A stretch of 55,550 nucleotides of DNA from an uncultured Verrucomicrobiota bacterium (lineage in GTDB: Bacteria > Verrucomicrobiota > Verrucomicrobiia > Opitutales > Intestinicryptomonadaceae): positions 1-55,550 of the forward strand of contig CASEFZ010000071.1 of the NCBI GenBank assembly GCA_949287395.1, written 5' to 3'. The position numbers were made by a program, and so were the translations under genes. Position 1 is the first letter of the stretch, and each line of letters begins with the position of its first letter. A model generated the notes under the pieces. That model did no database searches, was not told where the DNA came from, and saw only the letters and a program-made list of their open reading frames with translations. Shown piece by piece: positions 22,117-55,550 of this stretch.

Positions 22117-23109
22117 CTAATGTGTATTGGCGGCGCCGTTTTCCGGTTCCTCTTTGAAGCCCGGCGGCACGCGGCTAAACTGGAATATGGGCAAGAGGAC
22201 AAGAAGCCCAACGACGGTCATTCCAAGGACGAAATATCCCGCGGCGTCGTGGACAAACCCTGATATGGACTCGGGGCCGTTTTGGTAGGCCCAAAAAGAA
22301 AGAAACAGAGCCCGCAATATATTGTTAAAAAAGGCCAGGCACATCGAGACAAGCACAAGCAACACCTTCTTCCAAAATTTATCCAGAAACACCGCCGCCA
22401 AAAACGAGCCGGCAAACAGGCAGGCCGTCAGTGATCTTATTCCGCTGCATGCGTCCGCTACGCCAACCGAGCCGTTGGGAAAGGTCAAAGAGTTTCCGTT
22501 TAGCTCCACAACATAGCCCAGCCATGTCATTACGGCATACACTATTTTTGCGACCTTTGACAGCAGAAACAAGCTTATCAAATTTTCCACGGAGCTAAAA
22601 AGCGGCGCCGATATCAGCCAAGCGAAGGCAGGGAATATAAAGAGGCATACAAACCCCAACCTCTCTTTTATGGTTGACGGTTTGCGCGCCGCCGCAAAAT
22701 AGGCCATGGCGATGAAGCTAAAGGAAAAGCCAAAAGTTATGGGGAAGGCCAAGCTGCCAGACTCCTGCGCTGCTATCAGCATAAACGCGAACAGGAAAAA
22801 CACCGCCAGTCCGCACAGCAGCATGCTGCCGAAAAACGTGTCGGCAATCAGGTTGGCAAGCGAATACTTGGGCTTGGAAGTAAGTCCGACGTTGGAAAAG
22901 TACGCAAAAACTTTTTCCTTCCGGTCGAAAATCACATAGAGGGCAAATATCGGCATTAGGTAGCCGAATGAATAGTCCTGCCTGGTTGCCCACGTTTCGG
23001 AAAGAAAAAACGTCAAGATGCAACCCATCACAAGAACCGCAAACGCGCCCACCCACACTTCCTTGGGCATTTTATTGATCAGGTCTGGTTTGGGGTTTGA
23101 ATCTGGCAT
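22117..23109 (-). CDS. Exosortase (PEP-CTERM transpeptidase)
   Basis: Encodes 330 aa, a polytopic membrane protein with about eight hydrophobic helices. The exosortase catalytic triad is present: Cys221 in VADACSGIRSLTA, Arg266 in NNILRALFLSFWAY and His287 in FVHDAAGY. The upstream FPNGSVGVADAC is also typical. It recognises Pro-Glu-Pro-type C-terminal signals in exported proteins, cleaves them and transfers them to an unknown acceptor. One such substrate ends at the left edge of this window (2-196). The gene lies 13 bases downstream of an EpsI-like partner, a common pairing. The Asn/Pro-rich ends (MPDSNPKPD; EEPENGAANTH) are probably cytoplasmic tails. Confidence 0.93.
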   Translation of the reverse strand: MPDSNPKPDLINKMPKEVWVGAFAVLVMGCILTFFLSETWATRQDYSFGYLMPIFALYVIFDRKEKVFAYFSNVGLTSKPKYSLANLIADTFFGSMLLCGLAVFFLFAFMLIAAQESGSLAFPITFGFSFSFIAMAYFAAARKPSTIKERLGFVCLFIFPAFAWLISAPLFSSVENLISLFLLSKVAKIVYAVMTWLGYVVELNGNSLTFPNGSVGVADACSGIRSLTACLFAGSFLAAVFLDKFWKKVLLVLVSMCLAFFNNILRALFLSFWAYQNGPESISGFVHDAAGYFVLGMTVVGLLVLLPIFQFSRVPPGFKEEPENGAANTH

Positions 23110-37770: not shown

Positions 37771-39492
37771 ATGACAGGAACTTTTCTTAGGATTGCTTTT
37801 GCTCCTTTTGCATTTTTGTTTATCCTGTGGGCGGTGCTGGGCGCCGAGGAAAAAACGTCCGTTGGAACGGCTCAAAAAGATGAAATGGCGCAGGACGGGG
37901 CGCATCAAAAAGTCGGCGCGGTTTTGGACGGTTCAGCCCTTTGCAAATATGTGGATATTTTTAACGCCGCCGACAATGAGATATACAAGAACGAATATCC
38001 CAACGCGCGCGCGAAAGAGTTTCTAATAAAAAATATTCCGCTGTTTGAATGTCCCGATAAAAACATTGAAAGCGTGTACTATTTCCGCTGGTGGACATAC
38101 CGCAAACATATCGCAAAGTCTCCGGAGGGCTGGATTGTGACCGAGTTTATGCCCCATGTTTCGTGGGGGGGCAAATACAATATAATCAGCTGTGCGGCAA
38201 ATTTTCATGTGGCCGAGGGCAGGTGGCTGAAAGACAAGTCTATAATATCCGACTACCTTAGAATTTGGCTGACGTCAAAAAATGCCAGGCCCCGCGCATA
38301 TACTTTTGCCGCCGCGCGCGCCGCCTACGACTACCACCTTGTTGCCTCCGATACAGATTTTTTAAGGGAAATATTCGGGCCCTTGAAGGAAAATTCCGCA
38401 GCATGGGAGAAAGAGCGCCGCCCTGACGAAAATTATCTTTTTTGGCAATTCGACACTTCGGACGGAATGGAATGTTCCATATCGGGCGCCCTGAGCAATG
38501 CGCAAACAATGCAGCAGTTTGAGCGCTTCGCCTTTGTAAAGGACGCGCGCGGATACAGGGTGAACACAAATTCCTACATGTTTGCGGATTTCGACGCATT
38601 GTCGAAAATAGCAAAACTTATTGGCGAACAGCCCGACGCAGAGCTTTACGGGCGCAAAGCAGATATTTTAAAAAAACTTATAAATGCGCATCTTTGGGAC
38701 GCCTCTGCCAAGTTTTATAAAACTCGTTCGGCATTTGGGAATCGCGATTTCGCCGACGTGAGGGAATTGAACGCCTATTCCCCCTGGATGTTTTCCATAC
38801 CTCCCGACGGGTACGCCGAGGCGTGGCTCCAGTTGACGGACACGCGCGGGTTTAAAGCGCCGTTTGGCCCAACCACCGCCGAGCAGCGGCACAAGCTTTT
38901 CCGCATAACGCGCAAGGGGCACGAATGCCAATGGAGCGGCGCAAGCTGGCCGTATTCAACGTCGGCTGCGCTGGTGGCGCTTGGCAACCTTTTGAACGAA
39001 TGTAAAAACCCGCCGCTCGACAAGGGCGACTTTTACGAAACCCTTTCCACATACGCGAGCTCGCACAGAATCCAGTGGGGCGACGGTTCGCAGTCTTATT
39101 GGATAGACGAGTCTTTGGATCCTTATACCGGAGAGTGGATTACGCGCTCCCAGCTTATGAATTGGGACGCGAAGGGCCCGTGGAACAACGGCAAGTGCAA
39201 CGGCCCCGAACGCGGAAAAGACTACAACCATTCGGAGTATTGCGACATAATAATCTCCGCTCTTGCCGGGTTCCGCCCTCTTGAGGAAAACGCCTTTGAG
39301 CTGAACCCGCTAATCCCTGAAGATTGGGGGTATTTCTGCCTGGACAACATATATTATAAGGCAAAAACCATAACGGTTCTTTACGATAAATCGGGAGAGC
39401 GGTACAATCTCGGCAAGGGCCTTGTTGTTTTGGTGGACGGAAAAAAGGTGTTTTCGGCGCCCGTTTTGAAGCGGGTAAAAATAGGGCTTTAA
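37771..39492 (+). CDS. Secreted (alpha/alpha)6-barrel glycosidase, MGH1/GH63-like
   Basis: Encodes 573 aa. A hydrophobic N-terminus (FAPFAFLFILWAVLG) acts as a signal peptide. The body resembles the mannosylglycerate hydrolase-like/GH63 barrel: FDTSDGMECSISGALSNA (compare the SGMDNSP-type acid loop), LNAYSPWMFSIPPDGYAEA, WSGASWPYSTSAALVALGN, and the conserved end WNNGKCNGPERGKDYNHSEY, followed by a beta-domain (YDKSGERYNLGKGLVVLVDG). It probably hydrolyses an alpha-linked glycoside in the periplasm; the substrate cannot be stated. The gene is alone, with its own promoter directly at the ATG. GH63, GH37 or an unclassified clan-G relative are possible assignments. Confidence 0.75.
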   Translation: MTGTFLRIAFAPFAFLFILWAVLGAEEKTSVGTAQKDEMAQDGAHQKVGAVLDGSALCKYVDIFNAADNEIYKNEYPNARAKEFLIKNIPLFECPDKNIESVYYFRWWTYRKHIAKSPEGWIVTEFMPHVSWGGKYNIISCAANFHVAEGRWLKDKSIISDYLRIWLTSKNARPRAYTFAAARAAYDYHLVASDTDFLREIFGPLKENSAAWEKERRPDENYLFWQFDTSDGMECSISGALSNAQTMQQFERFAFVKDARGYRVNTNSYMFADFDALSKIAKLIGEQPDAELYGRKADILKKLINAHLWDASAKFYKTRSAFGNRDFADVRELNAYSPWMFSIPPDGYAEAWLQLTDTRGFKAPFGPTTAEQRHKLFRITRKGHECQWSGASWPYSTSAALVALGNLLNECKNPPLDKGDFYETLSTYASSHRIQWGDGSQSYWIDESLDPYTGEWITRSQLMNWDAKGPWNNGKCNGPERGKDYNHSEYCDIIISALAGFRPLEENAFELNPLIPEDWGYFCLDNIYYKAKTITVLYDKSGERYNLGKGLVVLVDGKKVFSAPVLKRVKIGL

Positions 39493-42242: not shown

Positions 42243-43628
42243 ATGGAGATGGTGAGAGGTTTGTGTTTTCTTGCGGCTTTTGCGCTGGCGTCGGCGCCGG
42301 TTTGGTCGGCGCCTTTAAAGGAGCAGTCGCCCAAGCTCTTTAAGGCGGGCGACGGCGTTTGTTTTATAGGCGACAGCATAACGCACGGGGCGTTTTATAC
42401 TGAGAATGTTTTGCTGTTTTACGCAACGCGCTATCCGGATTCCCCAATGAAAATATACAATGCAGGAATGAGCGGCGAGGGCGTAGGCGGCGTCTTGAAG
42501 CGCCTTGAGTGGGACGTATTCAATAACAAGCCCGACGTTTGCGTCATAATGATAGGCATGAACGATGTTCCCCGCAGCGCGTATTCCGAGAAGTGGCGCA
42601 AAGCGCCAAATTTCCCCGAGCGCGTTAAGGGTTTTCAGCAGCGCTACTCCCGCGATATGGAAAAGGCTGTCAAAGAGCTGACAAGCCGCACGAAAAAGGT
42701 TGTGGTGTTCACTCCGTCGATATTCGACCAGACAGTCCAAAGCGAGCGCGAGAATTTGCTTGGCTGCAACGACGCCCTTGGCTGGTGCGCCGAGATAGAC
42801 AAGCAGCTTGCTAAAAAATACGGCGCTGAAGTTGTCGACATTTGGACCTACATGACCGAGAAAAATGCCGAATACCAAAAGGAGGATCCAACCCGCAGCT
42901 TTATAGACAGAGACCGGGTTCATCCGCGCGATCTCGGCGGGTTTGTGATGATGACAAAGGTTGCCATAGATATGGACGAATCTCCTTATGTTTCCAAGAT
43001 GCGCGTTGATGTTGGCGCGCGTTCCGTAAAGGGAAGCGCGAATGTTCAGATAAGCAAGGCCGACTATAAAAACGGCGCGCTCACCTTTACAGCTCTTGAG
43101 AAGGCTCTGCCTTTCCCGATGACAAAGGAGAAGGAGGAGGCCGACAAGGTTTTGAATTTCACCGACACATACAACAAGCAGATTCTTCAGGTTGTTGGGT
43201 TGAAGGCCCCGAAGTACGAGCTTAAAATAGACGGGCAGAGTGTAGGAACGTACACTTCCCAAGAGCTTTCCGGGGGTGTGAATCTTGCAAGAAACAAGGA
43301 AACCCCGCAGTACAAGCAGGCCTTGGAGGTTGCAAAACTTTGCTCAAAATTCAAGGGCCAGACCCAGACGTGCCGCGCCATTACCGGGGCGGAAATTTGG
43401 CTTAACATAGGGCATTTAAAGACTGTCGAGGAGCGTTGCGCCTCGCTTGAAAAGCAGCTTGCCGAGGGGAAGATAAAGCCCGGCGGCGACACTGCCTGGG
43501 CGAAGGCCTATCCCAAAAACAAGCCCCGCGAGGCCGAGCTGCTTGAGGGTGTCCAGCAGACCATACGCGACGCCTATGCAGCAGCTGCCCCCAAGCCCCA
43601 CACTTTCGAGCTTGTCCCTGCGCGCTGA
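42243..43628 (+). CDS. Secreted SGNH/GDSL-like hydrolase (paralog 1)
   Basis: Encodes 461 aa from the ATG at 42243 (GGAAAGG directly upstream; the ATG at 42249 is equally possible). A signal peptide ends near VWSA. The N-terminal ~250 residues are an SGNH fold: GDSITHG with nucleophile Ser45, block II Gly in AGMSGEG, MIGMNDVP with Asn, and catalytic Asp224/His227 in DRVHPRDLGG. The C-terminal half (about 250-461) includes YELKIDGQSVGTYTSQELSG and a long helical part, shared with the protein encoded at 48874-50244. SGNH enzymes with this layout are usually carbohydrate esterases or lipases; acetylated polysaccharide is my guess. It follows shc after 117 bases. Confidence 0.85.
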   Translation: MEMVRGLCFLAAFALASAPVWSAPLKEQSPKLFKAGDGVCFIGDSITHGAFYTENVLLFYATRYPDSPMKIYNAGMSGEGVGGVLKRLEWDVFNNKPDVCVIMIGMNDVPRSAYSEKWRKAPNFPERVKGFQQRYSRDMEKAVKELTSRTKKVVVFTPSIFDQTVQSERENLLGCNDALGWCAEIDKQLAKKYGAEVVDIWTYMTEKNAEYQKEDPTRSFIDRDRVHPRDLGGFVMMTKVAIDMDESPYVSKMRVDVGARSVKGSANVQISKADYKNGALTFTALEKALPFPMTKEKEEADKVLNFTDTYNKQILQVVGLKAPKYELKIDGQSVGTYTSQELSGGVNLARNKETPQYKQALEVAKLCSKFKGQTQTCRAITGAEIWLNIGHLKTVEERCASLEKQLAEGKIKPGGDTAWAKAYPKNKPREAELLEGVQQTIRDAYAAAAPKPHTFELVPAR

Positions 43629-43673
43629 CGAAAATTTTTTCGGCGCGGGTTTGCCTTTGTAAGTTTTTTAATT

Positions 43674-43709
43674 TTGCGCGCGGTGTTGCGGCCCGCGCGC
43701 AATTTTTTT
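43674..43709 (+). terminator. Rho-independent terminator after SGNH paralog 1
   Basis: TTGCGCGCGG pairs perfectly with CCGCGCGCAA around a 9-base loop, followed by seven Ts. It lies between the convergent SGNH gene and the exonuclease gene. Confidence 0.8.
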
Positions 43710-43874
43710 GAGGGTATTGCGTCCTTTTTTTTGTTCGTCGGGCAATTTTTTTTGGATTTTTTATCTATGCGGGGCAGGGAAATTTTTTTGTTCGCCCGGT
43801 TTCTGATTGGCGCTTAAACGAGCATTGTTTGCGAAGCAGAGAGCTGCGGCTCTTATCCGCAAAACGGCTGCGCT

Positions 43875-44780
43875 TTAAATAAATTTTGCGAAGTCAGATT
43901 CCCTTATAAAAACTATATTTGGGAAGGACAGAGCCTCTTGGATTTTTCGCCCGTAATTTCCGTTGGCCCAGCCGTCGCTTGCAAGGCCGCCGACAATTAT
44001 ATAACTTGTTTTTGAATTTGCCGTGGATTGCAATTTTCCTCCGAGAGCCTTTATCTTATTTTCAACGTCTTTTCGGCTCAAGCTGACGAATTCCCCGGAA
44101 ACGACAAATTTTTTCGAGAAATCAATTGAATCGACTTTTCGGTAGGGCAGGTCGGCTTTTGTCTCAACGGCACAGTCAACGGGTTTAGGGTTTTCCCATA
44201 GATTGCAAATTGCCGCCTCCTCAATTTGTGAAATCTCTTTGTAAACGAGAATCCCAAATTCCGACGCAATCTTAAGTAAATCTCCCGAATTTGTCAGCGG
44301 CAACAGCTTGTGAAACAGTTTGCCGCACGCGCGGGCGTCGCAGAGGGAATTGTGCTTTTCGCAAATTTCAATCCCATATTTACCGCATAAATCGTCAAGA
44401 CTGGCTGAAGGTTCGCCCAACATTTCAGCAATGCGCCGTGTGCACAGGTATTTAAAATCCGGAAAAGACATTTTTCGTTCGTAAAGCCAGGCTGAGAGGC
44501 AATCCATGTCGAATTCGGCGTTATGCGCAACAACGTACGTTGAAAGGTTTTTTTTTACATTTGGATACAATTCGGCAAACGTGGGCGCGCTATCGACATC
44601 GGCGTAAGTTAAGCCGTGAACTTTTTGGTACAAGCGTTCGAATTTATATGGTTCGGGCTTTGCCAGGGAGTAAAAAGAGTCTATTTCAACGCCGTTTTCC
44701 CAAACGGAAATTCCCACCGAACAGATTGAAGAACGCTGCCTGTTGGCTATTTCAAAATCGATGCAGGTGACCTTGTTCAT
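43875..44780 (-). CDS. DnaQ-like 3'-5' exonuclease with C-terminal BRCT domain
   Basis: Encodes 301 aa from the ATG at 44780, giving MNKVTCIDFEIANRQRSSIC; the frame is open further upstream without coding character. Residues 1-165 are a DEDDh exonuclease: CIDFEIA (ExoI), VVAHNAEFDMDCLSAWL (ExoII), and KHNSLCDARACGKLFHKLL (ExoIII with His and Asp). Residues about 220-301 form a BRCT domain (FVVSGEFVSLSRKDVENKIK, SYIIVGG). Such fusions are annotated as DNA polymerase III epsilon-like or exonuclease-BRCT proteins acting in DNA processing. The gene is single and AT-richer than its neighbours. On the minus strand AATTAT lies six bases before the ATG, another possible leaderless start. Confidence 0.85.
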   Translation of the reverse strand: MNKVTCIDFEIANRQRSSICSVGISVWENGVEIDSFYSLAKPEPYKFERLYQKVHGLTYADVDSAPTFAELYPNVKKNLSTYVVAHNAEFDMDCLSAWLYERKMSFPDFKYLCTRRIAEMLGEPSASLDDLCGKYGIEICEKHNSLCDARACGKLFHKLLPLTNSGDLLKIASEFGILVYKEISQIEEAAICNLWENPKPVDCAVETKADLPYRKVDSIDFSKKFVVSGEFVSLSRKDVENKIKALGGKLQSTANSKTSYIIVGGLASDGWANGNYGRKIQEALSFPNIVFIRESDFAKFI

Positions 44781-45124
44781 AACACTATAATTTTTACGCG
44801 CAAAAAAATTCAGCAATTTCTTTAACAAAAAGCCTCCAATCCAAACGCTCCGCGCGCACCTTATGCAGTCTATGCGGAATATCGGGTTCAACAAGTAAAT
44901 TTTAATGTTGCCATGGCGCTTTGAAGAACGGTTGATAGAGGATTGCGCATTGTTTAAGGAATAATCTATGCGTAGAAAATTTGCGCGTCGGTGGGCTTGA
45001 TGTAATGCTTGGCGCGCGCTTTTTTCCGGGGCCTAAGTTAAACCCATTTGGGCGATGCCGGATAGGTTTTTAATATAGCTCCGCGCCGTCCTGCGCGTTC
45101 CAGGGCGGCAAGAAAACTTTTCAA
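44781..45124. other. Gap between the exonuclease-BRCT gene and gspK
   Basis: 344 bases between two minus-strand genes. It should hold the exonuclease promoter and the end of the gsp transcript. A 9-bp stem (GCCGTCCTG/CAGGGCGGC, 45085-45109, one wobble) follows gspK but has no T-run on the minus strand. Nothing else is recognisable. Confidence 0.45.
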
Positions 45125-46339
45125 TCAGCGCCCGCGCTCCCTAATCTCAAGTATTCTTGCCGAACCAGACGCCGCCTTCTTGGTGTCGGAACTTTGCGAG
45201 CGCGCCTTTGTGCTTGATGACGCCCCCATGCCCACGCGCGACATGTCGGCCGTCTTTGAACCTCCGGACGAGGACGCGCTCTTTGTATTGGTAATCCTCT
45301 TGCTTCGGTCTGTATTTGCGCCGCCGGTGACGGAGTTTTTTGACTCTGCCCCGTAGTATGCGCAGAGGTAATATTCGGCTATGCCCCGTTTTACGGTTAT
45401 TTCAATCTTTAACAGGCTTGCTGTGAACGTTCTCCACTTTGAGTCCGGCATATCGGGGGCGCCCCTTGAGATTGCCTCCGAGGCGCTCTTCACCCAAAGA
45501 ATTCCCTTGTCGATGGTGCCTATCTCTCCGCGTATGGCGCGGTATATGTTGGAGTCGTAGTCGCGGCCGCATATTTCCATGAGCATTTCCAAGACTTCCT
45601 CGCTTGCGGAATTCATATTCACCTTGTCGAAATTCTCCACCGAAACAATGTTTGCGAAACGAAAATAAAGCTCGTTGGGGGAACCGTCCTTGTCAAAAAA
45701 TACGTCCCTAAATTTCATTATATGGCGCAGCTCCATCAGGGATTTTAACGCGCGGTTTGGGGGTTTGGGCTCCTCGTCTTCGTAGTCGTCGGTTTCGGCT
45801 CCGTTTATGCGTTTGGCTCCGTCGGCGTCGGTCCAGTCAAGAAGGCAGTCGGCAAGCTCCTGGGCCTCGGTGGTGGATATGTCCATTTCCTCAAAAATGG
45901 CAATAAGGTCGGCGGTGTTAAGAAGGGCAAGGGGAATTTTTCCAGTTTCGTCGGTTATGCGCACATCCGCCTCAAAATTGTCGAAAGTTACCCTGCCGTC
46001 TTTGAGCGGTTCTCCCCAGCCCTGGACTGCGGAGTACAAATTGCCGTCGAGCGACCTGTATTCCTCCAACACCGCTATTGCCGCCGAAAGCGCGCTGTAG
46101 GCGTCTATGCGCAACTCGTTCTCATACTGTGATGCCGCCCTGTCCTTAAGCTCCATTGAAGCGTAATCGGCCAGCGACAGCATGAGTATCGACGCCGCGA
46201 AAATCAGGCACAAGACAAAAAGCGCCGCCCCTCCGCGCCGCGGCTTTCCCCCCGAAAGGGGCACGCGCATGTGCGCCGCGCCCGCCGCGCGTGCGGCGCG
46301 GTGAACATCCTTAAAAGAATTGCCGAAGGCGCGCTTCAT
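45125..46339 (-). CDS. gspK: Type II secretion minor pseudopilin GspK-like
   Basis: Encodes 404 aa. A long basic leader of about 37 residues precedes the hydrophobic prepilin helix (GGAALFVLCLIFAASILMLS). The periplasmic part has the GspK pattern: ITDETGKIPLALLNTADLIA, LADCLLDWTDADGAKRINGA and ETDDYED, followed by an ELRHI stretch and a helix-hairpin-like segment (KVNMNSASEEVLEMLM). The last ~75 residues are a Ser/Lys/Thr-rich, low-complexity basic tail not typical of the family. GspK caps the pseudopilus tip. Its ATG overlaps the gspJ stop (ATGA), showing translational coupling at the end of the operon. Confidence 0.88.
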   Translation of the reverse strand: MKRAFGNSFKDVHRAARAAGAAHMRVPLSGGKPRRGGAALFVLCLIFAASILMLSLADYASMELKDRAASQYENELRIDAYSALSAAIAVLEEYRSLDGNLYSAVQGWGEPLKDGRVTFDNFEADVRITDETGKIPLALLNTADLIAIFEEMDISTTEAQELADCLLDWTDADGAKRINGAETDDYEDEEPKPPNRALKSLMELRHIMKFRDVFFDKDGSPNELYFRFANIVSVENFDKVNMNSASEEVLEMLMEICGRDYDSNIYRAIRGEIGTIDKGILWVKSASEAISRGAPDMPDSKWRTFTASLLKIEITVKRGIAEYYLCAYYGAESKNSVTGGANTDRSKRITNTKSASSSGGSKTADMSRVGMGASSSTKARSQSSDTKKAASGSARILEIRERGR

Positions 46340-47034
46340 TGGGAAATTTGGAAATCAAGGTAGAGGTTTAAGGGTATTATGCGCTCGTAGGTTTCGCCGT
46401 TTTTGTCGAAATATATTTTTAAATATTTTGGCATTAGGTCAGAGTAGAGCATTGTGACAATTTCTTCCTCCTCCTTCCAAGTGTCGTTGTCGAAATACAA
46501 AAAGCCAAGCTTCTTCACCCATGGGGAGAGCAGGGCCTTGTATATGGCTGCGTCCTCCCCGACGCGCTCGGGCTCCACAAAGCGCCATACGACATACAGG
46601 CCTTCGTCGGAAAGCTCCAACAGGCAGAGCTTGTCTCCTGAAAAACCGAGCGGCGACGGATAGAACGGGTGTTCGGTGGCAACCCCGTAGCCAATGTAAT
46701 ATTTATCCTGGCTCTTTTCTTCAAAGTCTCTGGCAAGCCAAACAGTTTGTGCGGCATTGCTTGCCAGCCTTGATTCAAAAAGCTCGGGTTTGGCTATGTC
46801 AGAATCCATAACCGCCCCCCTCAAAAACTTTTCCACCCCGTCAACATGGGACTTAAACGGACTTCCCTTTTCAAAATAGTCCATCAGCCTAACCATGTCG
46901 AACATCAGCGCGGTGCACCCAAGCATTATCACGGACGATATCGCCAATGCCAACATTATTTCCACCAGCGTGAACGCCCCGCGAGCGTTTTCGCGCTCGG
47001 CCAGAAAATTAATCGCCTTTTGCTGGGGGATCAT
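46336..47034 (-). CDS. gspJ: Type II secretion minor pseudopilin GspJ-like
   Basis: Encodes 232 aa. The prepilin peptidase site is RGAFTLVEIMLALAISSVIM (cleavage after Gly, Phe at +1, Glu at +5). Position in the operon between I and K and a globular domain with GLYVVWRFVEPE and LKIYFDKNGETYERI fit GspJ, although the soluble part is divergent. It is a pseudopilus-tip component with GspI and GspK. Start and stop both overlap neighbours by ATGA, so translation is coupled. Confidence 0.75.
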   Translation of the reverse strand: MIPQQKAINFLAERENARGAFTLVEIMLALAISSVIMLGCTALMFDMVRLMDYFEKGSPFKSHVDGVEKFLRGAVMDSDIAKPELFESRLASNAAQTVWLARDFEEKSQDKYYIGYGVATEHPFYPSPLGFSGDKLCLLELSDEGLYVVWRFVEPERVGEDAAIYKALLSPWVKKLGFLYFDNDTWKEEEEIVTMLYSDLMPKYLKIYFDKNGETYERIIPLNLYLDFQISQ

Positions 47035-47522
47035 CTTTTGAAATCTTGTTTAAGGCGCAGCGTTTCAAGATAGTCGGTGCGGTCGCGCACAAGTTCGTCG
47101 CGGTCGTTGGTGTTTTCGTACCAGTCGGGCCTTATTACCCAGAGTGTCTTTGAAATGGTTTTTCCCTCTTTCTCAACGCGCATTTTAAGCTCGAACAAAT
47201 CTATGACCTGCGTTGGTTCGGCTTCGCCGTAAACGGTGCAAGTGTCGCCGTCGAGCGTCTCCACGTCGACGCCGTCATCCAGGGATTCCTCGTCGGAGAC
47301 GGATGTTATGGCCTCCACGGCCCTATCCATCAAATTTTCCAGCTCGACATCGCGTTCCTTCATGTCCAGCGGGAAAAGCAGATTGTAGCAGGTTGTGCTT
47401 ATGAAAAACGCCGCCATGACAAAAATGGCAAGGGCCAGAACGGTCTCCACAAGCGTAAATGCGCGCCTGCCGTGCGTGCGTGCAAAGGCGCGCTTTCCGC
47501 AGGCGCACGCGCGCATGCGCAT
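47031..47522 (-). CDS. gspI: Type II secretion minor pseudopilin GspI-like
   Basis: Encodes 163 aa from the ATG at 47522, giving a 19-20-residue basic leader before the prepilin site RRAFTLVETVLALAIFVMAA. The ATG at 47516 is an alternative, and the ATG at 47594 would overlap gspH by 40 bases with a longer leader. The soluble domain is short with acidic repeats (DEESLDDGVDVETLDGD). Order and length suggest GspI, which nucleates the tip complex. The gene is in the gspG-H-I-J-K operon, coupled to gspJ by an ATGA overlap. Confidence 0.72.
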   Translation of the reverse strand: MRMRACACGKRAFARTHGRRAFTLVETVLALAIFVMAAFFISTTCYNLLFPLDMKERDVELENLMDRAVEAITSVSDEESLDDGVDVETLDGDTCTVYGEAEPTQVIDLFELKMRVEKEGKTISKTLWVIRPDWYENTNDRDELVRDRTDYLETLRLKQDFKR

Positions 47523-47554
47523 CCCGGAATAAGGTTGTATTTGGCGGCGAAATG

Positions 47555-48271
47555 TCACAGTTGTTCCTCTTCCATGATTTTCGGAGGCGCGCAAAATATG
47601 TCGCTTTCAAACTCGGTTTCAGATTCCCCTATGCTCATTGTTATTTTCGCGTGGGTCATGCAGCCGTCGGGCGAAAAACGCAGAAACTTTATGGGAGCCT
47701 CGGGAAACTTGAGGGGAACCGTGTTTACAAGCTTGGGATAAATTTGGTGAAACTCGAATTTAGGCTTGGAGTCGTCCCAGAAATCCCCGTCGCCTTCGTC
47801 CGAAAACAAATCCATTGGGTCGTCGGAATCCTCGGAAAGGCTGGTGAAAAATTTTTCGGCAAAGGCCTTGGAATCAAATTCGTCAACAGCGCCATTCTTG
47901 CTTTTTTTGGAATGCTCGAGATATTTCTTGTTCTTTTCAGAATCTAAAAATACCCGCATCAAAGGCTTCGAGGTCTCTATGTCGAATATCAGGAAAAACC
48001 CGCGCTCGTCAAAAGACATTCCCGCGCTGCGCCCGCTGTCGCGCGCAATGTCCCTGGCGCGCTTTATGGCCGTTGCCAACACAACTTCGGGCGGGCGCTG
48101 TTGGAGAGCCTTTTCCGAAACCCCCATTGCGCCCGCTATTAGAGCCACCATTGCGGCAATCAAGGCTATTGCCAACAAAATCTCCGCCAGCGTGAAAGCC
48201 CCGCTCGAGCGGCAGCCCGCTTCGCGTACAAAATTCCGCCCGCGCACCCGCATGTGCGACAGCCCAAACAT
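47555..48271 (-). CDS. gspH: Type II secretion minor pseudopilin GspH-like
   Basis: Encodes 238 aa. A basic leader ends at SSGAFTLAEILLAIALIAAM (Phe at +1, Glu at +5), followed by VVLATAIKRARDIARDSGRS and GMSFDERGFFLIFD, the strand pattern of GspH/FimT pseudopilins. An unusual acidic Ser/Asp/Lys insert (about residues 115-165) makes it longer than most GspH proteins (about 170 aa). It links the tip complex to the major pseudopilin. It starts three bases after gspG. Confidence 0.78.
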   Translation of the reverse strand: MFGLSHMRVRGRNFVREAGCRSSGAFTLAEILLAIALIAAMVALIAGAMGVSEKALQQRPPEVVLATAIKRARDIARDSGRSAGMSFDERGFFLIFDIETSKPLMRVFLDSEKNKKYLEHSKKSKNGAVDEFDSKAFAEKFFTSLSEDSDDPMDLFSDEGDGDFWDDSKPKFEFHQIYPKLVNTVPLKFPEAPIKFLRFSPDGCMTHAKITMSIGESETEFESDIFCAPPKIMEEEQL

Positions 48272-48274
48272 TTG

Positions 48275-48712
48275 CTACCAGTTGCCTATGTCGTCGTCGG
48301 TTTCGCTTTGGCCGTCTGGCCCATTTGACCACAAGTCGTATCCTTCACTGCTCTTCTGCGCCGGAGAACGATACTGGTAGGGGTTCCCCCACGGGTCTTT
48401 CGGCACGGACGTATCGCGCAAATACGGTCCATTCCACCTGTCTTTTATCTCGTCCGGCGCGCGCAAAAGGGCTTCAAGCCCCTCCTCGGTTGTCGGATAA
48501 CGCCCAATCGCAAGCTTGTACGACATAAGCGGCGTCGACAGCGAACCCCTTACAAAAGTTTTAGCTATGCTGCTTTGGCCGCTGCTCATTGTCTTTTCTA
48601 TGTTCGTCACAAGCATGAACGCCAGCAGCGAAATCATGGCTATGGCAAGCAGTATCTCTATCAATGTAAACGCCGCGCGCGCGGAACGTTGCTTCAAAGA
48701 AGTCTTCGTCAT
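48275..48712 (-). CDS. gspG: Type II secretion major pseudopilin GspG
   Basis: Encodes 145 aa. The prepilin site RAAFTLIEILLAIAMISLLA is followed by the GspG fold hallmarks: YPTTEEGLEALLRAP, RWNGPYLRDTSVPKDPWGNP and the calcium-binding C-terminal loop YDLWSNGPDGQSETDDDIGN. It polymerises into the pseudopilus that pushes folded proteins through the outer-membrane secretin. It is first in the minus-strand operon with a good promoter and GGAGG ribosome site. The secretin, ATPase and inner-membrane genes (gspD, E, F) are not in the window. Confidence 0.95.
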   Translation of the reverse strand: MTKTSLKQRSARAAFTLIEILLAIAMISLLAFMLVTNIEKTMSSGQSSIAKTFVRGSLSTPLMSYKLAIGRYPTTEEGLEALLRAPDEIKDRWNGPYLRDTSVPKDPWGNPYQYRSPAQKSSEGYDLWSNGPDGQSETDDDIGNW

Positions 48713-48733
48713 AGGTTTTCCTCCGAACGTACT

Positions 48734-48761
48734 TATTTACAAGAAACGCTCCCCGTGTCAA
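48734..48761 (-). promoter_or_regulatory. Promoter of the gspGHIJK operon
   Basis: On the minus strand: consensus -35 TTGACA (48756-48761), 16-base spacer ending in TTG, -10 TAAATA (48734-48739). GGAGG then lies eight bases before the ATG at 48712. The leader is about 14-16 bases. Confidence 0.6.
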
Positions 48762-48802
48762 TTCGTTTCATCGTTTATGAAAGCTGCGGCTCAAAAATAT
48801 TG

Positions 48803-48831
48803 AAAAAAAGGCGCGCATGTAGATGCGCGCC
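48803..48831 (-). terminator. Rho-independent terminator after SGNH paralog 2
   Basis: GGCGCGCAT and ATGCGCGCC pair perfectly around the loop gtag. On the minus strand the stem is followed by seven Ts. It separates the SGNH gene from the gsp promoter. Confidence 0.8.
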
Positions 48832-48873
48832 AATTTAGCGTCTAAAAAAGGCAAAAAACGCCGCGCGCGCCGG

Positions 48874-50244
48874 CTACTTTACCGCGCGCAGATTGAACTG
48901 GTGCGGCTTCGTTTTGGCGGCGGCGTAAACATCCTTTACAATTGCCTGTACAGCGCGCCCCATCTCGCCCTGTTTGGGCTTTAAATCGGGATAGCGCTTT
49001 ATGAGGCCCAGCACATAGGGATTCTTTTCCTTCCCTTCGGTAAGGGCGCGTTTGGCTGCCTCAATGCGCTCTTCGTCAGTCTTATATTTGCGGAGCTTCG
49101 CAAAAAATTCGGTTGCCCTTATGCCGCGGTATTCCGAAGCCTTTAAGCGGAACTGGCGGCAGAGCTTTGCAACCTCCTGCGCCTGCTTGTATTGCGGCGT
49201 ATTCTTGTTCATGGCAAGGTTTATTCCCTCGGAAAGCTCTTCCGAAGTGTATTGGCCAATGTTTTTGCCGTCTATTGAAAGCTCGTACTTGCCGGGCTTT
49301 AAATTCTTTACGGAGAACATCTGCTTGTTGTATTCCGGGAGGAACCCCAACACGGCGTCCACGCCGTCTTTGTCGGCGCCCGTGGGATATGGCAGTGCAG
49401 CCTCAAGCGCGGTGAATGAAAGCCCTTCGGGCCCGAATTTTACATCGCTTACATCGGCGTTGAAAGCCTCCGAAAGTTTTGCGGCCTTGGCGTCGAACGC
49501 CATGCGGGAAACAAATTTCGGCTCTCCAAGGTCTATTATGAACTTTGAGGCCATCACAAAGCCGCCGACATCCTGCGGATGGACGCGGTCTGCGCCTATT
49601 ACAGACTTGGTCTTGTCGGTTTTGTGCAGGCGCTCGTTGGCCGTTTCCATGTAAGACCACATGTCGACAACCTTGGCGTCGTACTTTTCGGCAAGCTTGC
49701 GCCCTATTTGGCCGAAAACTTTGAGCTCGTCGTTGACGCCCTTTAGGTTCTCGGTTTTGTTTTCGGAAGTCTGGTCGTAAATGGAGGGCGTAAACATTAT
49801 GAGCTTGCGAGACCTCCCGGACAGGTGAGCCGCTATTTTGTCGAGGTTTTTCTCATAGCTTTCGCGCGTCTGCAAAACCTTCTTCTGGTGGTCGGGCTTT
49901 GTGCGCTCGCTGTCGGAGAATTTTCCCCTGCCGACGTCGTTCATGCCTATCATGAGGGTATAAACATTGGCCTTTACGGGGTCTATATCGTCGTCAAACC
50001 TGGAAATAATCCCCCAGCACGAGTCCCCGCTTATGCCGAGATTGTAGAAGCTCAGGGGAATGTCCGGAAAGCGCGTTGCGTAATATAACAGGAGGTTTTC
50101 CGTATAAAAACCCCCGTGCGTTATGCTGTCTCCCACAAGGCATATGTTGTCGTTTGCCTTGAATATAGACGGCTTCTGTTCCTGCTTGGCGGCGCAAAAC
50201 GACGCGGCCAAAAAAACGGTTAATATGCAAACAAACCTTTTCAT
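48874..50244 (-). CDS. Secreted SGNH/GDSL-like hydrolase (paralog 2)
   Basis: Encodes 456 aa with a signal peptide (MKRFVCILTVFLAASFCAA). Catalytic blocks match paralog 1: VGDSITHGGFYTENLLLYYA (Ser40), LGISGDSCWG, MIGMNDVGRG, MFTPSIYDQT and GADRVHPQDVGGF. Similarity continues through the C-terminal half (YELSIDGKNIGQYTSEELSE; NKNTPQYKQAQEVAKLC), so the two genes are full-length paralogs. The activity is probably that of a carbohydrate esterase, outside the cytoplasm. It is divergently placed from the first beta-helix gene with 164 bases between starts, so the two may be co-regulated. The distinctive C-terminal domain is not one I can name. Confidence 0.85.
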   Translation of the reverse strand: MKRFVCILTVFLAASFCAAKQEQKPSIFKANDNICLVGDSITHGGFYTENLLLYYATRFPDIPLSFYNLGISGDSCWGIISRFDDDIDPVKANVYTLMIGMNDVGRGKFSDSERTKPDHQKKVLQTRESYEKNLDKIAAHLSGRSRKLIMFTPSIYDQTSENKTENLKGVNDELKVFGQIGRKLAEKYDAKVVDMWSYMETANERLHKTDKTKSVIGADRVHPQDVGGFVMASKFIIDLGEPKFVSRMAFDAKAAKLSEAFNADVSDVKFGPEGLSFTALEAALPYPTGADKDGVDAVLGFLPEYNKQMFSVKNLKPGKYELSIDGKNIGQYTSEELSEGINLAMNKNTPQYKQAQEVAKLCRQFRLKASEYRGIRATEFFAKLRKYKTDEERIEAAKRALTEGKEKNPYVLGLIKRYPDLKPKQGEMGRAVQAIVKDVYAAAKTKPHQFNLRAVK

Positions 50245-50373
50245 TGCCGACGGAGGTTATTTAGGGCGCGCGGATTGTCAAGTTTTAAGCCCCCGGCCTT
50301 GTTTCCAAACAGTTTTGGAAGGCGCGCCCGACAGCCGGCGTGGGCGCGCGTTTGCGGCGCGCTTCGTTATAAC

Positions 50374-50401
50374 TTGACAGATGCCGCCATTGCTTTAGAA
50401 A
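50374..50401 (+). promoter_or_regulatory. Promoter of the first beta-helix gene, probably leaderless
   Basis: Consensus TTGACA (50374-50379), 16-base spacer, TAGAAA (50396-50401), then seven bases to the ATG at 50409. No ribosome site fits in the remaining leader. Confidence 0.55.
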
Positions 50402-50408
50402 ACCATTT

Positions 50409-52523
50409 ATGAACAAGTGGTCATTTATTGTGTTGTCGGGTTTGCTTTTGGCATGCGCGCTTCAGGCGGCTCCAAGCAGGATATTCATATCTCCAACAGG
50501 TTCAAATACAGGCGGTAACGGCTCGGAAAAAGCCCCTTATGCGACGCTTCAGCGCGCGAAGGCCGCAATCAAAAGCCTTCCGAGAGGCGAGGTTGAAATA
50601 GTCGTCTGCGAGGGCGAATACTTTGTGGGCGACGGCGTGGAGTTTACAAAGAACGACCTCAAAGATGTAAAGCTCACCATAACCGGGCGCCTTGGAGCCA
50701 AGGACAAAAAACCTGTTTTTATAGGGGGAAAGAAGGTTATGGCCTCCGAGTTGCAGGAGGTCACCGACAAGGCCATATTGGCCAAAATTCCGTCAGACGC
50801 CGAGGGCAAGCTGTTTTTCATAGATTTGAAAAAGTTCGGCATGACCGACTACGGCAAGATGCGCCAGCGCGGTTTCGGCAGCCCCACCTATCCCACCGAG
50901 ATGGAGGCATTTTACAATCACGAGCCCATGACATGCGCGCAGTATCCCAACGATACTTCCATAATGAAGATAGGCGAGGTTCTCGACGAGGGCCATGTAA
51001 GGGCCATTGCCTACGGGCAGGGCGCATACAAGCCAAAGCCTGACAAGCACATCCGCGGGGCTACATTCAAGTATATAGACCAGCGCACGGAACGCTGGGC
51101 CGACGCCCCCGAGGCTTTTATACGCGGCAATCTTTCGGTTGGCTGGGCTGACGACCAAATAAAAATAAAGAAGATAGACACCACCGCGAAGACCATTTTG
51201 CTAGATACTCCGCACGTTTACGGCGTCTGGAGCTGCGTGCCCGACAAGGACGGCAAAGTTAAAAGCGGCGACATAGCCGTGCGCGGATACCAGGTGTACA
51301 ATTTGTTGGAGGAGATAGACCGCAACGGGGAATACTATATTGACCGCCAAAACGGCATATTCTATGTGATGCTTCCGGAGAAGCCCTCCGCAGACAAATT
51401 CTTCAATTTTTCAATCATCAGCGAGCCTTTCATAAGGTTTAAAGATGTCGACGGCGTAACGTTGCAGGGCATAGATTTTACGGCCAACCGCGTCACGGCC
51501 ATAGAGATGAACAACTGCACCAACTCTCAAATAGACCGGTGCCAGGTTTACAACTGCGCCAGGGGCATACGCATGACGGGGATAAAAAATTCTCTGACGC
51601 GCTCGCGCGTTTACAACTGCGCCTACGGCGGCATTGAGGTTCGCGGCGGGAACAGGCGCACTCTTGAGCGCGGCAACAACGTTGTGAAAAATTGCGAATT
51701 TTTCAACAACGCGCGCCTGAAGATGAACTATTCCCCGGCCCTCCTTTTGGGCGGCGTAGGCAACACGATATCGAATTGCGACTTTCACGACCACCCGCAT
51801 GTGTGCATACAGTACGGCGGCAACGACATGCTCATAGAGCGCAACACGTTTATACGCTGCTGCAAAGGGTCCAGCGACATGGGAGTCACCTACACCGGGC
51901 GCAACCAGAGCGAGCAGGGCAATATAATCAGGCGCAACTTCTTCTCGAAGAACCTGCCGCCCGACCCCGGGGCAATGATGTGCGGGGTGTATGTTGACGA
52001 CGGCTCCGGCGGAACGCTGATTGAAAACAACATATTTTGCGACACGGGTTCGATAGGGCATTCGTCGAGTTTCGGCGCGGTGTACTACCACGGCGGATGC
52101 GACAACATAGCCAGGGAGAACGTGTTTATAGCTTGCGAGTCTGGGGTGGGGCAGCAAACCTGGACCAACGAGTGGTGGGCGGCGGCCATCAAGAGGGAGT
52201 CGCACCGTTTCTACAAAGAGGTTGACGTAAATAGCGACATCTACAAAAAGCGCTATCCCAAGCTTGCCAAGCTGTTTGACCCGCAGGCCCCAAGGGAAAA
52301 TTTTGTCGAGCGCAACAAGGTTTTCTGCACCCCTATGTCGCTTAACGGAAACATGATACTGAGGAATAATAAGCCCTTAAAGCCAAATAAAGGCTTTACT
52401 GCTGCGCAGGCCTTGGGTGTCGATTTCTGGACTTTGGAGCTTGTTGAGAAGTACTTCGGGGAAGACGCGCTTGTTAAGAAGAATCTTGAGGGTTCCATAG
52501 GCGTGGAGAAGGTTGAGCAGTAG
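50409..52523 (+). CDS. Secreted right-handed parallel beta-helix protein (tandem copy 1)
   Basis: Encodes 704 aa. A signal peptide (MNKWSFIVLSGLLLACALQA) is followed by a DUF1565-like cap (IFISPTGSNTGGNGSEKAPY) and the first helix turns. An inserted segment of about residues 120-310 contains YGKMRQRGFGSP, CAQYPND and KPKPDKHIRGATF. The main beta-helix is at about 330-620 (NSQIDRCQVYNCARGIRMTG, NTISNCDFHDHPHVCIQYGG, GSSDMGVTYTGRNQSEQGN). It has the build of extracellular polysaccharide lyases and glycosidases such as GH141-like proteins; I cannot assign the catalytic residues. Two paralogs follow in tandem, and an SGNH hydrolase diverges from it. Confidence 0.8.
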   Translation: MNKWSFIVLSGLLLACALQAAPSRIFISPTGSNTGGNGSEKAPYATLQRAKAAIKSLPRGEVEIVVCEGEYFVGDGVEFTKNDLKDVKLTITGRLGAKDKKPVFIGGKKVMASELQEVTDKAILAKIPSDAEGKLFFIDLKKFGMTDYGKMRQRGFGSPTYPTEMEAFYNHEPMTCAQYPNDTSIMKIGEVLDEGHVRAIAYGQGAYKPKPDKHIRGATFKYIDQRTERWADAPEAFIRGNLSVGWADDQIKIKKIDTTAKTILLDTPHVYGVWSCVPDKDGKVKSGDIAVRGYQVYNLLEEIDRNGEYYIDRQNGIFYVMLPEKPSADKFFNFSIISEPFIRFKDVDGVTLQGIDFTANRVTAIEMNNCTNSQIDRCQVYNCARGIRMTGIKNSLTRSRVYNCAYGGIEVRGGNRRTLERGNNVVKNCEFFNNARLKMNYSPALLLGGVGNTISNCDFHDHPHVCIQYGGNDMLIERNTFIRCCKGSSDMGVTYTGRNQSEQGNIIRRNFFSKNLPPDPGAMMCGVYVDDGSGGTLIENNIFCDTGSIGHSSSFGAVYYHGGCDNIARENVFIACESGVGQQTWTNEWWAAAIKRESHRFYKEVDVNSDIYKKRYPKLAKLFDPQAPRENFVERNKVFCTPMSLNGNMILRNNKPLKPNKGFTAAQALGVDFWTLELVEKYFGEDALVKKNLEGSIGVEKVEQ

Positions 52524-52557
52524 TTGGTCTTGGCGTTTTTTATCGGCTGCATTGTGG

Positions 52558-52585
52558 CGCGCCCGTTTGAGGGCGCGTTTTTTTT
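52558..52585 (+). terminator. Rho-independent terminator between beta-helix copies 1 and 2
   Basis: CGCGCCC and GGGCGCG pair around a six-base loop (gtttga), followed by eight Ts. Each beta-helix gene therefore appears to be its own transcription unit. Confidence 0.8.
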
Positions 52586-52604
52586 GGGTGTGGCGCATAG
52601 AGTC

Positions 52605-52633
52605 TTGACTATGGGTCTAAATTTAGATATGCG
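52605..52633 (+). promoter_or_regulatory. Candidate promoter of beta-helix copy 2
   Basis: TTGACT (52605-52610), 17-base spacer, TATGCG (weak -10, 52628-52633), eight bases before the ATG at 52642. Its position mirrors that in front of copy 1. Confidence 0.35.
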
Positions 52634-52641
52634 ACAGGCGT

Positions 52642-54768
52642 ATGAAAACGCTATCATTCTTGTTTATGATGGCCGCGTGGGGGAGCACGTTTGGCTTGAC
52701 GCAAATAAACATATCGCCGTCGGGGTCCGACACTGCCGGGGACGGCAGCAAGTCTCGGCCGTATAAGACGCTTGCCAAGGCAAGGGACGCCGTAGCAAAG
52801 GCGCAGGCGGGCGATTTTGAAATAGTGGTTGCGCCCGGGGAATACGAATTTTCCCAGGGGGTTGAGTTTTTTGGGGCGCCTTTCAAGGGCAAAAGCGTTT
52901 CCATAGTTGGGCAATCGTCGGACGGCAAGAAGCCTCGATTTGTGGGTGGGGTTAAAATTCCGTCTTCGGAGTTAAAGAAGGTGACCGACAAATCCGTGCT
53001 TGCGAAGGTTCCGTCCGAGAGGGATGGCGTGTTGTATTCCATAGACCTGAAGAAGCACGGGCTTACCAACTACGGCAAGATGCACCAGCGCGGGTTCGGC
53101 AGTCCCAGCAGGCCAACGCCCATGGAGGCCTTCTTGGACGGCAATCCGCTGACTTTGGCGCAGTATCCCAACGACGGGACCCGCATGGAGATAGGCAGGG
53201 TTTTGGATCCGGGCTTCAGGCGTTCCATCGCGGCCGGGCAGGGCGCATACAAGCCGAAGCCTGACAAGAATATCCGCGGTGCAACTTTTGAATGCGACAA
53301 TCCGCGCCTCGGGCGCTGGGCATCGGCTCCCGACGCCTATATAAGCGGTTTCCCTTCGGCGGGCTGGGCGTATGACGAAATTAAGATAAAGAAGATAGAC
53401 CCTTCGTCCAAAACCATCACGCTTGAGACTCCGCATTGCTACGGTGTTTACTCGAACAACACCAAGGGGTTGGACATGAAGGATCCCGCTTCGTGGGTGG
53501 CCGGCATGGACGTCTGCGTGCGAGGGTTTAAGGTGACGAACCTGATTGAGGAGCTCGACGCCGACGGCGAGTATTACATAGACAGGGACAACGGAATATT
53601 TTATGTGGTGTTGAAGAATCGCCCCGCGGGGGATGTGCCGTTCTATTTTTCGGTAATAGACAGTCCGTTTGTTAGCCTGAAAGACGTGGACAATTTCAAG
53701 ATAAAGAATTTGGACATGTCGGCTGCGCGCAACTACGCCATTAACGCCCGCAACTGTTCCGGGCTTTCGATAGAAGATTGCGACATCCACTCGGGCGGAA
53801 GGGGTATACAAATTACAGGGACGTCGCAGTCGAAGCGCAACAAGATATCGCGCTGCAAAATATACGACCTTGCATACTCCGGGGTTTCGATTAGCGGCGG
53901 AGACAGAAAAACTTTGGAGCCATCGGAAAGCAGCGTGGAGGATTGCGAATTTTTCGACAATGCGCGCATAATTCCGTGCTCAAATCCGGCGCTGTCGATT
54001 TCCGGCGTTGGCGTTGCCGTGCGCAACTGCGAGTTCCGCCGGCATCCGCACATAACTCTTTCCCACAGCGGAAACGAGCTTGTCATAGAGCGCAACATAT
54101 TTGAAAACTGCTGCATGGGCTCAAGCGACATGGGCGTGGTTTACACCGGGCGCAATCAAACCACGCAGGGCAACGTTATACGCCACAATTTCTTTACCGA
54201 CATACTTGCGCCGCATCCCGACGCGATAGTTTGCGGGGTGTATGTAGACGACGGATCGGCGGGACAACTCATAGAGAAAAATATTTTTTGCAGGGTCGGA
54301 AACATGGGGAGGGCCCCTGCGTTCGGGGCCATATACGTGCACGGCGGCGGCGACAACATAGGGAAGAGAAACGTGTTCATCGACTGCCAGTCTGGAATGA
54401 GCCAGGAGGAATGGACCGACGAGAAATACGGAAGCGCCCTCAAGCGCGAGTCCGCCAAATTTTACAAGGAAGTTGACGCCAATGGGGAACTTTACAAAAA
54501 GCGCTATCCCAAACTTCAACTGCAGCTGACGGCCGACTATCCCCGCGTAAACTACGTGGAGGACTGCCGCGTATGGAATACCTCGCTGACAATGAGCGGG
54601 AAGATACATCTCAAGCGCAACAGAATGCTCACGCCCAATAAAGGTGTGACGAAGCTTGACATCGCGAAGGTTGACTCTTGGACATTGGACGATGTCAAGA
54701 GGTGTTTCGGCGACGATCCCACCGTCAAAGAGGCCATGAAGGGCGGGTTCGGAGTCAGAAGGAAGTAG
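52642..54768 (+). CDS. Secreted right-handed parallel beta-helix protein (tandem copy 2)
   Basis: Encodes 708 aa, collinear with copy 1 throughout. It has a short signal peptide (MKTLSFLFMMAAWGSTFG), the cap INISPSGSDTAGDGSKSRPY, the inserted segment with YGKMHQRGFGSPSRP, AQYPND and KPKPDKNIRGATFE, and the long beta-helix (LSIEDCDIHSGGRGIQITG; MGSSDMGVVYTGRNQTTQGN; CGVYVDDGSAGQLIEKNIFC). The C-terminal region (FYKEVDANGELYKKRYPKLQ; NKGVTKLDIAKVDSWTLDD) is also shared, with copy 1 reading VDVNSDIYKKRYPKL. The role is presumably glycan binding or cleavage outside the cell; catalytic residues are unknown. Confidence 0.8.
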   Translation: MKTLSFLFMMAAWGSTFGLTQINISPSGSDTAGDGSKSRPYKTLAKARDAVAKAQAGDFEIVVAPGEYEFSQGVEFFGAPFKGKSVSIVGQSSDGKKPRFVGGVKIPSSELKKVTDKSVLAKVPSERDGVLYSIDLKKHGLTNYGKMHQRGFGSPSRPTPMEAFLDGNPLTLAQYPNDGTRMEIGRVLDPGFRRSIAAGQGAYKPKPDKNIRGATFECDNPRLGRWASAPDAYISGFPSAGWAYDEIKIKKIDPSSKTITLETPHCYGVYSNNTKGLDMKDPASWVAGMDVCVRGFKVTNLIEELDADGEYYIDRDNGIFYVVLKNRPAGDVPFYFSVIDSPFVSLKDVDNFKIKNLDMSAARNYAINARNCSGLSIEDCDIHSGGRGIQITGTSQSKRNKISRCKIYDLAYSGVSISGGDRKTLEPSESSVEDCEFFDNARIIPCSNPALSISGVGVAVRNCEFRRHPHITLSHSGNELVIERNIFENCCMGSSDMGVVYTGRNQTTQGNVIRHNFFTDILAPHPDAIVCGVYVDDGSAGQLIEKNIFCRVGNMGRAPAFGAIYVHGGGDNIGKRNVFIDCQSGMSQEEWTDEKYGSALKRESAKFYKEVDANGELYKKRYPKLQLQLTADYPRVNYVEDCRVWNTSLTMSGKIHLKRNRMLTPNKGVTKLDIAKVDSWTLDDVKRCFGDDPTVKEAMKGGFGVRRK

Positions 54769-54888
54769 GCCTTCTTTGGTGTTTTTTGGCTATTGTGTGT
54801 TTCGCATGGAGGCATTGTCGGATATTGCGGAACACACAATTTTTTATTTTTTGACTATAAATCTGTTTATTTGGAATGGTGGTATATA

Positions 54889-55550
54889 TGAAAAAATATT
54901 TGTTGCTGCTTCCCCTGATTTTTTTCGCGGAGCAAGTTGTCGCGGCGGAAAAAATATACGTCGGCGCCAAAGGCCGCGATACCGGAAACGGGACCATTGA
55001 GAATCCGTATGCGGCATTTGAAGACGCGGTGGAAAAATTTAAAAGGACAAAAGCCTCCGATGTGGAGATTGTGGTTTTGCCCGGAACCTATTACTTGGAC
55101 AGGGGCGTTTACATAAGCGGTGCGGACACCAAGGGCAGGAAACTTTCCATAGTTGGGGTGTCTGACAAAAACGGCAGGCGCCCGGTGCTTACGGGCGCGG
55201 CAAAAATTCCTTCGTCGGAGTTTAAGCCGGTGTCTGATAAGTCTGTGTTGGCTCTCATCCCGCAAGAGGCCGAGGGAAAATTGCACGTGGCAAACTTGAA
55301 GAAGCTTGGAATTACCGATTACGGCGAAGTTAAGCAGCGCGGTTTTGGCGGGAAAGATCCAGCCTTGGAAATGGAATTGTTTTTCAATCTAAAGCCAATG
55401 CGCCCCGCACAATACCCGAATGACTTGTCCCTTCTCCCTATAGGCGAAGTGTTGGACAGGGGGACAGTGTACAAAAACGCCTCCGGCATAATGGGCCCCA
55501 AACCCCCAAAGGACGACAATATCAGGGGGGCCACTTTCAAATACGACTAC
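54889..55550 (+). CDS. Secreted beta-helix protein (tandem copy 3), 5' part only
   Basis: The frame opens with the ATG at 54889 (GGTGG 5-6 bases upstream) and stays open to the window end, giving 220 codons. A signal peptide (MKKYLLLLPLIFFAEQVVAA) is followed by the family cap IYVGAKGRDTGNGTIENPYA, the segment KIPSSEFKPVSDKSVLALIP shared with copies 1-2, then YGEVKQRGFGGKD, AQYPND and DDNIRGATFKYDY. It is clearly a third paralog, more diverged than the first two are from each other. TTGACT at 54852-54857 may be its -35 box. Confidence 0.85.

Follow-up and report, generated by a model that had tools for sequence, protein, structure and literature searches.

BT4096 of Bacteroides thetaiotaomicron is a diltiazem deacetylase, and its structure resembles that of a carbohydrate acetylesterase (PMC11864876). 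The activities described for glycoside hydrolase family 141 (GH141) are those of an RG-II fucosidase, a xylanase, and endo-fucanases (PMC12786026); since one family spans all three, family membership alone leaves the substrate unfixed. The catalytic aspartates are D523 and D564 in BT1002, 41 residues apart, and D540 and D577 in Xyn141E, 37 residues apart (PMC5593877). A literature search found no paper joining GH141, an SGNH acetylesterase, and fucoidan, which does not prove that none exists.

Relatives of both kinds of enzyme are encoded near one end of the stretch of DNA analysed here. This window is the whole of contig C71, 55,550 nucleotides of a 1.93 Mb, 92%-complete draft genome of an uncultured bacterium of the order Opitutales (the host in what follows), and all gene coordinates below are positions in it. 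One of its two SGNH genes and its three beta-helix genes (BH1 to BH3) form a conserved unit, SGNH2-BH1-BH2-BH3, which stands at different sites in two species.

Genes of the window and extent of the array

SGNH1 (42243-43628, plus strand; Pfam GDSL lipase/acylhydrolase) and SGNH2 (48874-50244, minus strand; Pfam GDSL) encode full-length paralogs with 45% identity. BH1 (50409-52523), BH2 (52642-54768), and BH3 (54888-55550, cut by the contig end) follow one another on the plus strand, with BH1 diverging from SGNH2. BH1 and BH2 match Pfam Beta_helix, and the three proteins are 51% (BH1-BH2), 47% (BH1-BH3), and 47.5% (BH2-BH3) identical. Between the SGNH genes lie an exonuclease-BRCT gene (43875-44894) and the pseudopilin operon gspK-J-I-H-G (45125-48712), both on the minus strand. 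Apart from the exonuclease-BRCT gene, this layout is the one given in the first-pass annotation, whose gene starts also agree with ours except for that of BH3, placed there at 54889; a second in-frame ATG of BH3 is at 54876. As judged by eye, each of the five SGNH and beta-helix proteins opens with a hydrophobic, signal-like stretch, in keeping with the signal peptides predicted before. NCBIfam made no assignment for SGNH1 or SGNH2 and matched the beta-helix proteins weakly.

The exonuclease-BRCT gene was absent from the earlier gene list, as was a glycoside hydrolase gene at 37771-39492. The latter is two genes upstream of SGNH1, looks secreted, and stands alone between dapB and a hopene cyclase gene. 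Its product matches residues 624-1101 of 5mqr with E 2.6e-97; we take this region to be BT1020, a beta-L-arabinobiosidase, and hence call the gene BT1020-like. Elsewhere in the window, a gene at 24073-28056 encodes a GH2 beta-galactosidase of 1327 amino acids with a Laminin_G_3 domain, whose neighbours on the two sides encode an exosortase (22117-23109) and an IPP transferase.

The last 141 bases of the window are exactly the first 141 of contig C52. Across this overlap, the joined BH3 frame encodes 716 amino acids and stops at base 1629 of C52, beyond which come convergent hemA, a polyprenyl synthase gene, and other housekeeping genes, recognised from their sequences. Thus, if the overlap is the true join, extension of the contig to the right completes BH3 and the array stops at exactly three tandem copies. 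The genome as a whole holds ten BH copies: three in the window, three in tandem on contig C24 (L026, 6319-12667), and one each on C9, C102, C79, and C14, with identities to BH1 of 34-52%. The SGNH family is represented by only the two window copies.

The divergent intergenic region between SGNH2 and BH1 (50245-50408) has TTGACA-like boxes on both strands, which may be regarded as candidate promoters. A terminator-like hairpin on the plus strand follows BH1 (52556-52579), and a TTGACT box then precedes BH2, an arrangement that suggests separate transcripts for BH1 and BH2. When the upstream regions of all the BH genes were searched for a shared promoter element, only loose TTGAC boxes were found.

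Fold and family of the encoded proteins

The model of SGNH2 (pLDDT 93) matches BT4096 (7br2) over both domains, with a VIA Z of 42.9, 420 residues aligned, and an rmsd of 2.1. The phmmer match to 7br2 covers residues 20-425 (E 1.1e-42), and the C-terminal domain is common to the two proteins, residues 26-455 being aligned (27% identity over the whole length). The SGNH blocks G38-D-S-I-T, G73, G100-M-N102, and D219-R-V-H222 (motifs GDSIT, GMND, and DRVHP) are all present in both window copies and are invariant or nearly so across the alignment (A2). The first-pass annotation had pointed to deacetylation as the task of the SGNH proteins; given the full-length match to BT4096 and the catalytic blocks, we likewise consider both to be probable deacetylases of the BT4096 type, and SGNH2 to be probably secreted.

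For BH1, an AlphaFold2 model from a 22-sequence alignment has a mean pLDDT of 91. Its best structural match is BT_1002 (5mqp), the enzyme on which GH141 was founded, with a VIA Z of 34.8, 486 residues aligned, an rmsd of 2.6, and a Foldseek E of 1.5e-19. The BH sequence profile matches 9rx2 (E 1.2e-29), for which a literature search found no paper, and 5mqp (E 1.8e-14). D490 and D530 (BH1 numbering), 40 residues apart, are invariant in 22 of 22 sequences, and the pair is kept as well in BH3 and in the divergent copy on C79. Against 9rx2, the profile alignment pairs the two aspartates; its 5mqp counterpart lies outside this region. The beta-helix trio are therefore probably divergent GH141-like, glycan-cleaving glycosidases, as judged from the modelled fold and the conserved acidic pair. 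The comparison with GH141, PL, and CE families proposed in the first-pass annotation has accordingly pointed to GH141-like enzymes for the beta-helix proteins and to BT4096 and acetylxylan esterases for the SGNH proteins.

Gene order in the sister species and across the order

The nearest relative is the sister genome G006 (CALXMX01). On its contig C106, SGNH2 again diverges from an adjacent BH1, and part of BH2 lies at the end of the contig. BH2 and BH3 are at the end of contig C145, in a direction matching that of C106, the arrangement being read across the contig gap. The orthologs are 74% (BH1, C106), 76% (BH2, C145), and 67% (BH3, C145) identical to the window proteins. The tree pairs BH1, BH2, and BH3 one-to-one between the species, with SH-aLRT values of 100, 100, and 96, and pairs SGNH2 and SGNH1 in the same manner. 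Hence, the link between SGNH2 and the beta-helix array, one part of the island proposed earlier, is kept in the sister species, where the block is flanked by lspA/dksA-like genes on one side and a KDG-kinase/YhcH pair on the other. SGNH1 drops out of the island, its ortholog being on contig C142, beside a second, truncated copy. At locus L237 of the sister genome, the order is hopene cyclase-X-gspGHIJK-hemA, with no SGNH or BH gene (names beyond gspG by sequence), while in the host the interval from cyclase to hemA contains SGNH1, the gsp operon in inverted orientation, and the SGNH2-BH block. Since the block is intact and its surroundings have changed, the gsp operon and SGNH1 are neighbours by rearrangement. 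Sister-species synteny thus removed half of the proposed island, a reminder that adjacency in a single genome may be deceptive.

The KDG kinase and YhcH genes beside BH3 in the sister genome were considered as a clue to a uronate substrate and were rejected: the host copies are on contig C13 without BH genes, and G008 has the kinase and lacks both BH and SGNH. A separate observation in the sister genome is a protein with a Pfam match to the hydrazine synthase alpha middle domain (L200, 915-3362), two genes from a GH141-like copy.

The number of BH copies in the sister genome is about the same as in the host, around ten, and the remaining congeners have none to two. In four congeners, the single copy adjoins a Sua5-like gene and, in three of them, a PlsC-like gene too, both names being given by eye from the sequence. 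It follows from this shared position that the genus has had the family for a long time and that the multiplication took place in a single lineage of two species. Two adjacent copies of the C24 array have adjacent orthologs on contig C61 of the sister genome, so this array is also old.

Among 141 genomes of the order, the SGNH family occurs in 18, the BH family in 28, and both in 11 (Fisher P 4e-5, with no correction for phylogeny). In three of the 11, namely, the host, G050, and G069, which belong to three families of the order, the two are no more than 5 kb apart. Random placement would give 0.24 linked genomes (P about 8e-4 for the three observed); when the host is left out, two of ten are linked (P 0.005). 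The linkage expected in related genomes is thus above chance, but tight linkage is rare: most genomes with both types keep them apart, and near 80 distant BH loci the SGNH family is found only in the sister genome and at one Pedosphaera locus.

The G050 locus comprises SGNH, an SSF symporter, GH95, two GH141-like genes, and LacI, with GH29 nearby; the G069 locus comprises LacI, GH2, an MFS transporter, SGNH, and two BH genes. In the host, by contrast, the SGNH2-BH unit has no gene for a transporter, a regulator, or sugar catabolism beside it, which bears out the earlier remark that this is not a standard utilisation locus. A GH29 search of the host genome gave two partial matches, too slight for a substrate assignment. 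Other SGNH relatives are adjoined by sulfatases (G028, G124, and G143), GH31 and GH78 (G016, with neighbours in G014 that look alike by sequence), GH106 (G001), or GH10 (G010), and SASA is likewise among the SGNH neighbours.

A proposed role and its alternatives

We propose, as a reasonably likely reading, that SGNH2 and BH1-BH2-BH3 are a four-gene unit that serves, outside the cytoplasm, to degrade a complex polysaccharide bearing acetyl groups, the reaction, the class of substrate, and the cooperation of the enzymes being what we infer. To judge from its fold, catalytic residues, and family, SGNH2 would be a BT4096-type serine esterase that strips O-acetyl groups, and the BH proteins would then hydrolyse glycosidic bonds through their Asp/Asp pair (D490 and D530 of BH1). 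Action of an esterase and a glycosidase on one glycan is plausible. Of the earlier claim of joint action on one acetylated glycan, this much stands, given the LacI sugar loci in two other families; on the other side are the mostly unlinked state of the genes and the Mpl context described below. Because the three BH copies share only 47-51% identity and are matched one by one by orthologs in the sister species, they probably differ in linkage or position preference. In other families of the order, SGNH and GH141-like genes share LacI loci with transporters and other glycosidases, fucosidases being among them in one; the ancestral substrate may thus have been a glycan with fucose or galactose, often in sulfated form.

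A different possibility is that the target of the SGNH proteins is the envelope of the cell itself, where they might be, for example, peptidoglycan O-acetylesterases in wall recycling, unconnected with the beta-helix enzymes. In six congeners (G003, G004, G005, G009, G010, and G012; loci L087, L089, L091, L092, L101, and L103), SGNH is 2-90 bp upstream of a co-directional gene for an Mpl-like UDP-MurNAc-tripeptide ligase, an unexplained link between an esterase and peptidoglycan recycling, and the SGNH family therefore has another context as well. The ligase was examined with Pfam and NCBIfam in one of the six and recognised by sequence in the other five; the G009 copy matches NCBIfam mpl with E 3.2e-99, yet is under the model cut-off. 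Moreover, a conserved three-gene operon for exported proteins of no assigned function has a further SGNH copy as its last gene in G004, G005, and G009 (L088 5494-10947, L090 4117-9551, and L093 8184-13572), those of the L088 operon having no Pfam match. Nevertheless, the window SGNHs fall outside the Mpl-linked tree groups (moderate support), SGNH2 remains with the BH array in both species, the closest structures are BT4096 and acetylxylan esterases, and the outgroup copies adjoin sulfatases and glycosidases, so that we consider an envelope role unlikely for the window proteins. More doubtful still is the full model of the first-pass annotation, which unites both SGNH genes, all three BH genes, and the pseudopilin operon in a single island for export and cleavage. 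The genes are contiguous in the host, which has secretin and GspE genes on contig C60, but SGNH1 and the exonuclease gene interrupt, and the sister operon is between hopene cyclase and hemA. Although gspG is present in 17 of 19 genomes, it is near SGNH or BH in the host only, and otherwise lies either on a different contig or at a distance of over 20 kb from SGNH; G007 and G008 have gspG despite missing both families. The pseudopilin operon is a chance neighbour of the SGNH2-BH unit, and the single export island is very improbable.

The nature of the beta-helix proteins can also be read in other ways. Were they polysaccharide lyases or epimerases of the PL6, RbmB, or AlgE kind rather than hydrolases, the VIA Z of 28-30 that such folds reach against BH1 would be accounted for. 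These matches, however, cover about 300 residues against 486 for BT_1002, the sequence-profile ranking is led by 9rx2 and BT_1002, and the N-terminal region and invariant Asp pair fit GH141; we give this reading little chance. About equally improbable is a mainly non-enzymatic role, in which the copies would serve at the surface or in binding and would have multiplied to aid attachment. Some ten scattered copies, 34-52% identical to BH1 and mostly amid housekeeping genes without sugar genes, would be in line with it, but both aspartates are kept in every aligned copy, even the divergent one on C79, and no PEP-CTERM or other anchor was seen by eye in the products of 704-716 amino acids. GH141-like glycosidases thus remain our preferred assignment.

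Apart from these questions, the genome has two adjacent T2SSE ATPase genes at C94:18759-21607, a third, GspE-like one on C60, and another on C15, so that it may encode two or more machines of the type II/IV-pilus-like sort.

Neither type of enzyme is new in kind, and what the unit represents is ordinary but well-defined carbohydrate enzymology. Its four genes are a compact test of teamwork between a BT4096-type esterase and GH141-type enzymes, which, if true, would give a drug-deacetylating family a natural job. The characterised members of GH141 are few and differ widely in what they do, and about ten diverged copies are a good place for new specificities. Tentatively, and with more doubt than confidence, we suggest that O-deacetylation of glycans cut by GH141-type enzymes is one of the native roles of the BT4096 family, known mainly for its action on diltiazem, and that the ten-copy expansion includes GH141-related enzymes of new specificity.

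Among the closest known systems, BT4096 is the same two-domain SGNH protein over its whole length, with the same catalytic blocks, but SGNH2 is paired with GH141-like genes. Axe2-type acetylxylan esterases (e.g., 3w7v) have a similar SGNH domain (Z about 20) and lack the C-terminal domain, so that essentially only SGNH2 residues 26-247 align. Verrucomicrobial fucose/rhamnose utilisation loci (PMC8857213) bring GH141 together with sulfatases and further families of fucosidases, as do some outgroup loci, whereas the window unit is without transporter, sulfatase, or regulator. With the GH141 enzymes, namely, BT_1002 (an alpha-L-fucosidase on RG-II, 5mqp), the xylanase Xyn141E, and the Wf141 endo-fucanases, the BH proteins have in common a whole-length beta-helix and an N-terminal region, and their Asp pair is 40 residues apart, against 41 in BT1002 and 37 in Xyn141E. 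BH1 differs from BT_1002 in its structural identity of about 18%, and its family is a tandem and dispersed expansion.
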